Assembly: GCA_903925015.1 (NCBI GenBank)
Contig: CAIYDY010000039.1
Coordinates: 1-64,000 of the forward strand
Direction of reading: 5' to 3'
From: an uncultured Acidobacteriia bacterium
GTDB lineage: Bacteria; Acidobacteriota; Terriglobia; Bryobacterales; Bryobacteraceae
Length of the DNA: 64,000 nt
Below the pieces are notes generated by a model. That model was not told where the DNA came from, did no database searches, and was given only the letters and a program-made list of their open reading frames with translations. The first letter of the stretch is position 1. Each line of letters starts with the position of its first letter. Positions 43,115 to 52,376 of this stretch are shown here, in pieces. The position numbers were made by a program, and so were the translations under genes.

Positions 43115-45337
43115 GTGGCTATCGGCGTGCTTCGCCTGGCGGTGGCGGTTTTGGCTGCGACGGCGGCAGCGGGCTCGCTACGCGCACAGGGCTCCAGTGT
43201 CTGCACTGCCTGCCATCCAAAGATTGCAGCCAGCTATGCCAAGACCGGCATGGCCAGGTCCTTGGCTCCACCGTCCGCGGAAATTCTAGTGGGCGACTTC
43301 TTCCACAAGGCATCCAACACCTATTTTTCGATGGTCCGGCGCGACGGCGTCGCCTACCAAATCGGTTACCAGCTAGATTCGGCAGGCAAGCGCATCAACG
43401 TGACCGAGAAGCGTATCGACTACGTGATGGGCTCGGGAAACCACGCCAAGACCTTTCTGAGCCGGACCATCGCGAACACGCTGATCGAATTGCCGCTGGG
43501 TTGGTATGCCGAAAAAGGCGGCTACTTGGCGATGAATCCGGGCTACGACCGAGTCGCCCACGACGGCTTCCGGCGCCCAATCACGTACGACTGCATGTTC
43601 TGCCACAACGCCTATCCGAAGATCCCGGCTGGCAACGAGCGTCCGTTTGCCGACGCGGTCTACTCCGGGGCGTTGCCCGAAGGCATCGACTGCCAGCGTT
43701 GCCACGGTTCCGGCGAAGCGCATGTCCGGTTGGCTGGGACGAAGGGCGCAAAACGGGAGGATATCCGGGGGGCGATTGTGAATCCTGCCCGGCTCAGTCC
43801 CGAGCGGCAGCTGGAAGGCTGTATGGTCTGCCACTTGGAAAGCACCAGTTTTCCTCTCCCGAACGCGCTGCAGCGGTTTGAGCGTCCTGCATTTTCATAC
43901 AAGCCGGGCGAGCCCCTGGGCGACTTCCTGATCAATTTCGACCATGCTCCCGAGGCGGGGCGAACAGACAAGTTTGAGATCGTCAGTTCTGTATATCGGC
44001 TGCGGCAGTCGGCTTGCTTTCTGAAGAGCGCGGGCAAAATGACCTGCACCACTTGCCACGATCCGCACGATGTTCCGCGCGGCGAGGATGCCGACAGGCA
44101 CTATACCGCTGTTTGCCGCCAATGCCATGCAGGGGATTTCCAACGTCTGGTGGCGGGGGGGAAGCACGTCGCTTCCGGCTCATGCGTGGAATGCCACATG
44201 CCCAAACGCCGGACCGAGGACGTAATCCACGCGGCAGCCACGGACCATTTCATCCAGAGGCGAAAACCGGTTGGCGACCTTCTCGCCGAGCGTTCCGAGC
44301 ACGAGGACCACTACCGGGGCCGAGTTGTTCCCTATTACCCGGAAGTGCTCCCAAAGACGCCGGAGAATGAGCTGACCCTTGCCGCGGCGCAGGTGATCCA
44401 GCAGAGCAACTTGGCAGCTGGTATCGGACAGCTTGCGGAGGCGATCGAAAAGTTCAAGCCGCAGCGGGCGGAGTATTACCTGCAGTTGGCCGAGGCGCTC
44501 CAAAACAACGGAGAACTGGAGAAGGCCGTGCCTGTTTTCCGGGACGCCGTCCGGCGTGACCCCCGCTCGGCCTATGCTTTGCAGAAGCTCGGGACGGCAC
44601 TGCGGAAGTCCGGCCTGAATACCGAGGCCGTGGAGGTATTGAACCGTGCGGTGGCACTGAATCCGGCGCGCGCTGTGACTTGGCACGAACTGGGGCTTGC
44701 GTACCAGTCCTCGGGCCGATCCACCGAGGCAGCCACAGCGATTCGCAAGGCACTTGCGGTCGACCCGGAGTTGCCGGAGGCCCACAACAATTTGGGGATC
44801 ATCCGGCAAGGGATCGGCGATCTGCCCGGAGCGGAGGCTTCATTCCGTGAGGCAATCCGGATTCGTCCGGCCTATGCCGACGCCCACGCGAACTTGGCCG
44901 GACTGCTGTCGGGATTCAATAAGGTTGAACAGGCTCGGGAGGAATTTGAATCCGCGCTGCGCTTGCGGCCGGCCGACGCGCCGACCCGCTACAACTACGC
45001 GATGCTGCTGGGTCAGGCTGGACAGATCGACGGGGCCCAGCGCCAGTTGGAGGCGGCATTGCAGGCTGATTCCAGCTTTGCCGATGCTCACATCCTCCTT
45101 GGAGACCTGCTGATGGCGAGGCAGCAGGTCCGGGAAGCCGGGCCGCACTATCGCGAGGCTTTGCGCCTTGTACCCGAATCCCCCCGCGCTCACTTTGGAC
45201 TTGCAGCCGTGTTGCTGGGCTCGGGTGACGTGCAGGGAGCGCTTCTGCACCTCCGAAGTGCGGCGGCGGGCTCGGACCCCGGCATCCGCGACCAAGCGGC
45301 GGGCCTGCTTCGGCAAATCCAGGCACCGCAAAAATAG
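43115..45337 (+). CDS. Heptahaem c-type cytochrome with TPR domain (second copy)
   Basis: This is 740 residues from GTG 43115. TACCAT lies 7 nt upstream, and the product then starts with a good signal peptide (AIGVLRLAVAVLAATAAAGSLRAQG); an in-frame TTG at 43088 lacks support. Seven haem motifs are present: VCTACH, DCMFCH, DCQRCH, GCMVCH, TCTTCH, VCRQCH and SCVECH. About eight TPR units fill the C-terminal half (ASFREAIRIRPAYADAHAN). Layout, spacing and many residues match the protein at 8601-10844, so they are paralogues. A periplasmic or outer-membrane electron-transfer role coupled to the neighbouring receptor is inferred. Confidence 0.9.
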   Translation: MAIGVLRLAVAVLAATAAAGSLRAQGSSVCTACHPKIAASYAKTGMARSLAPPSAEILVGDFFHKASNTYFSMVRRDGVAYQIGYQLDSAGKRINVTEKRIDYVMGSGNHAKTFLSRTIANTLIELPLGWYAEKGGYLAMNPGYDRVAHDGFRRPITYDCMFCHNAYPKIPAGNERPFADAVYSGALPEGIDCQRCHGSGEAHVRLAGTKGAKREDIRGAIVNPARLSPERQLEGCMVCHLESTSFPLPNALQRFERPAFSYKPGEPLGDFLINFDHAPEAGRTDKFEIVSSVYRLRQSACFLKSAGKMTCTTCHDPHDVPRGEDADRHYTAVCRQCHAGDFQRLVAGGKHVASGSCVECHMPKRRTEDVIHAAATDHFIQRRKPVGDLLAERSEHEDHYRGRVVPYYPEVLPKTPENELTLAAAQVIQQSNLAAGIGQLAEAIEKFKPQRAEYYLQLAEALQNNGELEKAVPVFRDAVRRDPRSAYALQKLGTALRKSGLNTEAVEVLNRAVALNPARAVTWHELGLAYQSSGRSTEAATAIRKALAVDPELPEAHNNLGIIRQGIGDLPGAEASFREAIRIRPAYADAHANLAGLLSGFNKVEQAREEFESALRLRPADAPTRYNYAMLLGQAGQIDGAQRQLEAALQADSSFADAHILLGDLLMARQQVREAGPHYREALRLVPESPRAHFGLAAVLLGSGDVQGALLHLRSAAAGSDPGIRDQAAGLLRQIQAPQK

Positions 45338-45450: not shown

Positions 45451-46503
45451 TCAGAGGCCGCTCTTGTTCAACCGCTGCGCCAGCTTGCGGCTCCGACCGG
45501 CGAGGAGGAGTCCGGTACCCGCAATCAGCAGCCCGGTCGAGGGCTCCGGGGCGGCGTTCCCGGTGTCCAGAATTGCCACCGAGCGTGCCTGGATTCCGCT
45601 GCTGGAGAAGTCGAAGGTGCTCACAGTGCCGCCGGGGGTGATTTTGTAGAGGGAGCCGGCACCTTGGGACCACCAGAAGTTGTCGTTACTGTCGATCGCG
45701 AACGTGTTCGGAGCGTTCGAACAGCAGACGAGCGTGGCGGGGAGGCCGCTCTTGAAGGTGCCCATGTAGGTGCCGGTGGAACTCCATTCGTCAAGCCTCG
45801 TACCGTTGACGAGGCCGAACAGGTTGCCGTTGCTATCGAACGCGAGTTCAGTGGGAGTGCTGCCCGAGTAGGCGGCAAACTGTCCGAGGTCCGTACCGCT
45901 CGTGGAGAACTTTTCAATGCTGCCTGTCGACCCTTGCGTCCAATTTGCCTGGTAGAGGTAGCCGTCCGGACCGATGGCAAGGCCATTGCCTTGTGTAGTG
46001 GTGACGACGCTGAATGCTCCGGACGGAGTGACCGCCGCAATGCCGAATTGCCCGTAGTAATTGTTGCTTCTGTTGTCATTCCGCAAGTAGACGGTTCCTG
46101 AAGAACTCTCGACGGCCTGCATTTGGGGGTTGATGACGACGTTGTTCCCGCTGGTATACTGCACGGGCTGCGCGCCGGTCGAAGTGTACTTGGTCAGGCC
46201 TGTTCCCTGGAATCCGAATTTGTATGGGACAGTTCCGGTGCTCGGACCGTCCACCACCCAACCGTTATAGTCGTTGACGGCAAGAGTCGTCCGGGAACTG
46301 GCGGAGAAGTTCCCCGATCCGTCTGCTGTGTACTGGTAGGTGACGAGTCTGGAAATCGACTGGTCAAAGGCGTTGACCAGCATGATTTCACCGGCGTGGG
46401 CGGCGGTTGCGCTGGCCAGCAGCGCAAGGGTGGCCGCGACCGTGGCGGCGTGGCGGAAGGTGGACTTGGGTAGACGTGTCGTTGTTTGGTCTTTGGTCGT
46501 CAT
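45451..46503 (-). CDS. PEP-CTERM sorting-domain protein
   Basis: This is 350 residues from ATG 46503 (AAGGAAA about 7 nt upstream). The signal peptide includes ATVAATLALLASATAAHAGE. The body has propeller-like repeats (NNVVINPQMQAVESSSGTVYLRND, LAIGPDGYLYQANW, FAIDSNDNFWWSQGAG; first quoted across a repeat boundary in two strands). The C-terminus is a complete sorting signal: the tripeptide in APEPSTG, a membrane helix (LLIAGTGLLLAG) and a basic tail (RSRKLAQRLNK). An exosortase should recognise PEP and anchor or release the protein during extracellular export, usually with exopolysaccharide. No exosortase gene is in the window. Confidence 0.88.
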   Translation of the reverse strand: MTTKDQTTTRLPKSTFRHAATVAATLALLASATAAHAGEIMLVNAFDQSISRLVTYQYTADGSGNFSASSRTTLAVNDYNGWVVDGPSTGTVPYKFGFQGTGLTKYTSTGAQPVQYTSGNNVVINPQMQAVESSSGTVYLRNDNRSNNYYGQFGIAAVTPSGAFSVVTTTQGNGLAIGPDGYLYQANWTQGSTGSIEKFSTSGTDLGQFAAYSGSTPTELAFDSNGNLFGLVNGTRLDEWSSTGTYMGTFKSGLPATLVCCSNAPNTFAIDSNDNFWWSQGAGSLYKITPGGTVSTFDFSSSGIQARSVAILDTGNAAPEPSTGLLIAGTGLLLAGRSRKLAQRLNKSGL

Positions 46504-51418: not shown

Positions 51419-52167
51419 CTAATTCAATTTCGGATTGCTATCGGCCTTTGATAGCGACCACCTGAAGCGACCTGTCCTTGACAGCAAGCCGAATACCGCA
51501 CTCCCAATAACCAGCAACCCGGCGCTACCCGGCTCGGGTGCTACCCCCGTCTGGCCCTCCGTGCGGACAAGAAAGCTCCCCATCTGTCCGTCACTGAAAC
51601 TGTCCGGCCAGGCGTTGTGCCCAAACAGACCCCCGAGGTTGCTCTGTTCAATTATGGCGATCGCGTAGTGGCTCGAGTAGATTGGATCGTCGTTACTGTC
51701 GTAGCCGCACTGTCGTAGCCGCTGATTGCGGCTCCGTCCGCCGTAAGACCCTGGGTTCTCGGACATGGCCCGGGCGGTATGGTCCCTTCACAATATCCGT
51801 TCTCGTTGATGCCGAAGATGTTGAAGAAGGATTGCGCGTCGGAATACCCCGCCGCAGTCAGACCGACAGCCTGGCCGTTTACATATGAGATCTCCGGCGG
51901 GTTGTTGAAGTTGTTGTCGATCATGGATTTGGCTTCCGCATACGACGCATACCGGAAGCCGTAGCCGGTCTCCAAGTTCTGGATGGCGGCGTCGTTCCAG
52001 GTTTCGCCTGCCGTGTACTTCGGTGCCAGCCATTGAAGATGGGTGGACGTGTCGGTGACCAATTGGCCGTCGCCAGCTGTCAGGAAGTCCCCCTTGATTA
52101 AACCAGCCTGGCACGTCAGGCTGAGAGCGGCGGTGCCAAAAACGATCTTTGCTATCTGCAGGTTCAT
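51419..52167 (-). pseudogene. PEP-CTERM protein gene split by a 14-bp tandem duplication
   Basis: From ATG 52167 (GAGGA 5 nt upstream) the frame encodes a signal peptide (AKIVFGTAALSLTCQAG) and a typical PEP-CTERM body (DTSTHLQWLAPKYTAGETWND, YGFRYASYAEAKSMID, AQSFFNIFG). At 51722-51695 the 14-mer GCGGCTACGACAGT occurs twice in tandem, which shifts the frame; translation then ends at 51652 after 171 residues. Removing one copy restores a 244-residue frame that continues DDPIYSSHYAIAIIEQSNLGG and ends with the sorting signal APEPGSAGLLVIGSAVFGLL plus basic tail, at 51419. As sequenced the product would lack the membrane anchor. Slippage on the direct repeat could restore it. Confidence 0.88.
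51695..51722. repeat. 14-bp perfect tandem duplication
   Basis: ACTGTCGTAGCCGC is repeated exactly at 51695-51708 and 51709-51722. It lies in the coding part of the PEP-CTERM gene and causes its frameshift. Confidence 0.95.
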
Positions 52168-52376
52168 AACGGTCCTCACTTTGGTTAGCGGGATCCGTTC
52201 GGAAAACCGGACAAAGATTCTGGCGGAAAATTCCGGGCTCACGAATTCGGGGCGTGCTGCTTTGGACCTGCGATCGGGACTACGGGCGGTTCCCCCGCAT
52301 CCGGGCCCGCAATCCGCTGCCGACGCCAACCGGAATGGCACGCACCTGAAACATCCGGCCTCCAACAGCCCCGCGC

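Follow-up and report, generated by a model that had tools for sequence, protein, structure and literature searches.

The gene and its 14-bp tandem duplication

The window analyzed here, a stretch of 64,000 nucleotides from an uncultured Acidobacteriia bacterium, lies on contig C39 (92,349 bases) of a draft genome of 6.33 Mb in 459 contigs (G000), which is most likely a metagenome-assembled genome. On its minus strand, positions 51419 to 52167 hold what synteny and 92% protein identity to an intact 244-aa orthologue identify as an ancestral 244-codon gene for a PEP-CTERM-type surface protein, enlarged by 14 bases. The frame that is actually read from this strand (51652-52167, taken from the ORF list) opens with the ATG at 52167, upstream of which a possible ribosome-binding site, GAGG, was read from the sequence (52174-52177, minus strand). 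It starts with MNLQIAKIVFGTAALSLTCQAGLIKGD, runs for 171 aa to the stop codon at 51652-51654, and closes with the out-of-frame end SAATTVTTIQSTRATTRSP. An N-terminal signal-peptide-like segment, MNLQIAKIVFGTAALSLTCQA, occupies 52105-52167 (minus strand), as recognized by eye and from its aligned position in the family. According to the ORF list and the family comparison, the 3' part of the gene (51419-51709, minus strand), with the tail and the final third of the domain, is left in another frame. The open frame encoding the tail, 51419-51766 on the same strand, differs from that of the ATG at 52167.

The 14 extra bases belong to a perfect tandem duplication. At 51695-51722, two adjacent and 100% identical copies of ACTGTCGTAGCCGC add up to exactly 28 bp, as an earlier note on this DNA had described and as TRF and an exact scan confirmed, neither of which found a third partial copy there. 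The repeat scan assigns the first copy, GCGGCTACGACAGT, to 51709-51722 and the second, which the alignment marks as extra relative to the orthologue, to 51695-51708, both on the minus strand. No other perfect two-copy tandem with a period of at least 10 occurs in the window, where 100 dinucleotide shuffles yielded 0.12 perfect tandems per window at this period and none at a period of at least 14; the repeat is not expected by chance. In 344 kb of sampled sequence, made up of the window, further contigs of its genome, and a single 22-kb contig from a same-genus relative (G017), just two perfect tandems with a unit of at least 14 were detected, one of them the 14-mer of the window. The other, a perfect 16-bp tandem with ATATGTAAGGCTAGCC in two copies, extends over the stop codon of a CpaF-like ATPase gene, itself intact, in the source genome (G000, C377:16705-16738). 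An insertion of 14 bases cannot preserve the reading frame, and both the sorting tail and the final third of the domain drop out of the protein. Removal of one copy leaves 735 nt, encoding 244 aa plus the stop, equal in length to the G017 gene.

A perfect 6-bp hairpin, AGCCGC-TGATT-GCGGCT (51717-51733), identified by folding and by a stem scan, abuts the unit, with one arm inside the duplicated 14-mer. Folding of the single-copy form as DNA gave -10.3 kcal/mol (z = -3.5). Comparable stems account for 3% of the window, and 6% of its positions are no more than 8 bp away from one; hairpin-associated slippage as the origin of the duplication is therefore suggestive, not strong. Simple microhomology-mediated duplication was rejected, since the repeat is exactly 28 bp long and shares no flanking base. 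In the loop that contains the duplication, the window and G017 both exceed every other family member by about 10 residues, which implies that the site was already prone to length change.

The predicted exported protein and its PEP-CTERM-like tail

In the reading preferred here, the gene encodes a small exported protein. Its family is uncharacterized and patchily distributed in this Acidobacteriia lineage; as a rule its members have a terminal PEP-CTERM signal, which serves exosortase-dependent sorting. The seven intact members align across the whole domain, and 13 of its invariant positions (residues 166 to 197) lie past the lesion and ahead of the PEP motif. Because these residues would be missing, the frameshifted gene probably yields a null product, and a stable protein that merely lacks its anchor is unlikely. 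The earlier note had regarded the sorting signal as the element that was switched off. This description proved too narrow, since the frameshift removes not only the tail but also a third of the conserved domain. A profile search against PDB returned no credible match (best E value, 0.95), AlphaFold modeling of the intact orthologue was unusable (pLDDT, 32), and Pfam matches to P2X_receptor and PDZ were rejected as far under the cut-off.

The tail carries a PEP-CTERM-like motif, PEPGSAGLLVIGSAVFGLLSRT (51476-51541, minus strand), placed by the Pfam and NCBIfam profiles. In this genome it is out of frame with the mature protein, as the earlier note had held for the C-terminal anchor: the frame stops at 51652, ahead of the tail. 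The window tail, beginning PEPGSAGLLVIGSAVFGLLSRTGRFRW, scores 18.3 bits against a Pfam cut-off of 20.7 and 14.9 bits against an NCBIfam cut-off of 16; the tail of the intact G017 orthologue, at 16.9 and 13.5 bits, is likewise below both. Thus, the claim that a single copy restores a clean protein of 244 aa with a full PEP-CTERM stands as to the 244 aa, but the tail does not reach the curated cut-offs. About 15 residues follow its basic cluster. PF07589 is matched by six of the seven family members, with a best E value of 1.3e-8. One exosortase, an EpsH homologue, is encoded in the genome (G000:C426:8618-9373; PF09721, E = 2.9e-73; TIGR02602, E = 1.6e-57, over cut-off), together with 58 PEP-CTERM loci above the Pfam cut-off, which indicates that the sorting system is present. 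Elsewhere in the window, a second PEP-CTERM motif (45484-45555, minus strand; 22.5 bits) ends a 408-codon frame, the protein of which has strongly diverged from its G017 counterpart (61% identity).

Ancestral state, age, and lesions in the family

The G017 orthologue lies on contig CAITMP010000057.1 of the metagenome-assembled genome of uncultured Acidobacteriia bacterium Umea1_bin-2613. It is 92% identical and syntenic, with a gene for a SurA/PpiD-like peptidyl-prolyl isomerase and one for a TonB-dependent outer-membrane protein as neighbors in both genomes. Here the 14-mer occurs once, and the 244-aa frame is uninterrupted, with a signal-peptide-like start and a PEP-CTERM-like tail; alignment with the window leaves a gap of exactly one 14-mer. 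Given the single copy and intact frame in this syntenic gene, the two-copy state is derived. Both copies in the window read GACAGT, versus GATAGC in G017, which fits a duplication that would have occurred within the window lineage, after its split from G017. An intact orthologue in a relative and a frame-destroying change here are the pattern by which a pseudogene formed by recent frameshift is recognized. The orthologue comparison proposed in the earlier note thus found the nearest relative to be single-copy and intact, and the two-copy state is not common to all relatives.

Two further observations came from the comparison with G017. Between its ppiD-like and PEP-CTERM-type genes (G017:C57, L010:590-1400), G017 has about 650 bp of additional sequence that encodes a PIN-domain toxin (PF01850, 25.2 bits) together with a likely antitoxin partner; the window lacks this sequence at the equivalent place (about 52244-52260). 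At 43454-43992 of the window, 539 bases are identical to G017 amid far more different surroundings, and recent recombination between the two lineages is possible.

Relative to G017, dN/dS was 0.17 over the whole gene; the part preceding the lesion gave 0.15 and the stretch between lesion and tail 0.165. Values of about 0.03 to 0.09 were obtained for the immediate neighbors (ppiD-like, TonB-dependent receptor, and others). This shows that the gene was formerly under moderate purifying selection. The 3' part beyond the lesion is still nearly intact at the protein level. No extra decay after the lesion is seen in dN/dS, which argues that the lesion is recent, in a low-power test based on 12 substitutions after it. 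Divergence from G017 is mosaic over 22 kb and hence provides no precise date for the lesion; a recombination tract behind the low divergence near the gene was discarded as an explanation on the same ground, as it dates nothing precisely.

Matches to the family were found in 11 of the 257 genomes of the order, comprising seven intact members, one weak partial match (G219), and three broken members with three different lesions: the 14-bp duplication of the window, one missing base in G120, and an extra base plus an out-of-frame internal deletion in G008. The broken copies of G008 and G120 come from draft genomes, and the G008 copy has a contig end less than 600 bases away. A further 30 PEP-CTERM loci of the source genome were inspected; one has a nonsense codon and one is apparently frameshifted. 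The former (G000:C76:18316-18954) stops directly after the signal peptide (AATV*GQDSN), where two intact G017 homologues read AATVYSQDSN; the latter (G000:C325:5200-5854), which has no close orthologue, has its signal peptide and tail in different frames. No tandem repeat is involved in these lesions. Such unrelated lesions across members are a pattern of gene decay or of draft-genome error, unlike a repeat-based switch, and they favor recent loss of function, or an assembly or strain variant, over phase variation.

Readings of the duplication and known systems

The reading we prefer, at a probability of roughly 0.72, is that a tandem duplication recently inactivated an accessory PEP-CTERM-type gene, an ordinary loss of function. 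Of the origins offered by the earlier note, recent mutation gives the best fit, dN/dS showing no accumulated decay. We infer an origin by slippage, a null product, and an absence of selection for switching; nothing indicates an evolved on/off switch. Replication slippage beside the small hairpin would have duplicated 14 bp in tandem within a variable loop, and the change of frame would cut off the sorting tail together with the closing third of the domain, leaving a probably nonfunctional product. The resulting allele would be a recent and ordinary loss of function, perhaps polymorphic in the population; deletion of one copy could in principle reverse it. Several points count against this reading: in a draft of 459 contigs the duplication could be an assembly error, the broken copies in G008 and G120 likewise come from drafts, and an exact two-copy tandem reverts more easily than other lesions do, phase-variable alleles of this type being known from other systems. 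The first of these would mean an assembly or consensus artefact, in which the population has one copy and the second stems from the assembly of metagenome reads. The hairpin beside the unit would be a place of polymerase slippage in library preparation too, as well as in the cell, and the fragmentation of the genome also favors an artefact. The duplication is located in the middle of a 92-kb contig, however, and perfect two-copy tandems of at least 14 bp are rare in the sampled sequence; furthermore, 14 bp is, to our knowledge, no usual assembler word size. We consider an artefact unlikely, if still worth reckoning with.

The reversible alternation suggested by the earlier note, in which slippage between one and two copies turns a surface protein on and off, appears distinctly improbable. 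It would be in keeping with an exact tandem in a surface-protein gene whose single copy gives the full frame, with purifying selection on the gene until recently, and with spontaneous reversible duplications in capsule genes that reportedly act in this way in Streptococcus pneumoniae (Waite 2001, 2003, as cited in PMC4022640 and PMC4243769). The repeat has merely two copies, however, versus the mostly long tracts of reviewed contingency loci (PMC4235727, PMC11868660), and sister genes are broken by other lesions. The two-copy form was absent elsewhere among the 257 genomes of the order and in a 14-mer scan of the genus, one versus two copies being seen between two species only, with no second genome varying at the site. 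Moreover, both domain and tail would be missing in the off state, and nothing points to a useful short form. The more specific proposal of a hairpin-assisted 14-bp duplication/collapse switch for an exosortase-sorted surface protein in an environmental Acidobacteriia population is given even slimmer odds; we know of no described phase variation of PEP-CTERM cargo. Programmed ribosomal frameshifting or transcriptional slippage across the duplication, by which the full protein would still be made, has next to no likelihood. The nearly intact 3' part would agree with recoding, but its conservation is attributable to the recency of the lesion; orthologues need no frameshift, and recoding was rejected as the site has neither a slippery heptamer nor a homopolymer.

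Read as a loss of function, the locus clearly illustrates the breakage of accessory genes for surface proteins in environmental bacteria, and it is a caution that not every tandem repeat is to be read as a switch. If both lengths coexisted in reads, the gene would become a candidate for phase-variable cargo of the exosortase system, most of whose cargo has no known function. A literature search found no papers on exosortase/PEP-CTERM in Acidobacteria.

Among known systems, the pneumococcal capsule genes cap3A, cap8E, and tts acquire spontaneous tandem duplications, for which reversion and population switching were reported (Waite et al. 2001, 2003, as cited in PMC4022640 and PMC4243769). As in those genes, a short in-gene tandem inactivates a surface-related gene here, and loss of one copy would restore the frame, so that reversion by the same route may be possible in principle; the present case differs in being known from one draft genome and in concerning another organism and type of gene. 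Contingency loci, by comparison, mostly consist of long repeat tracts according to the reviews (PMC4235727, PMC11868660). With PEP-CTERM/exosortase (EpsH) proteins (Haft et al. 2006, PMC1569441), the gene shares a signal-peptide-like N terminus and, at the C terminus, a PEP motif together with a hydrophobic segment and basic residues; unlike them, it has its tail out of frame, below the cut-offs even in the intact orthologue, and prolonged by a 15-residue extension. Like ordinary bacterial pseudogenes formed by small indels, it has suffered a single frame-destroying indel in an accessory, patchy gene whose relatives carry independent lesions, but its own lesion is an exact duplication that could, in principle, be cleanly removed.
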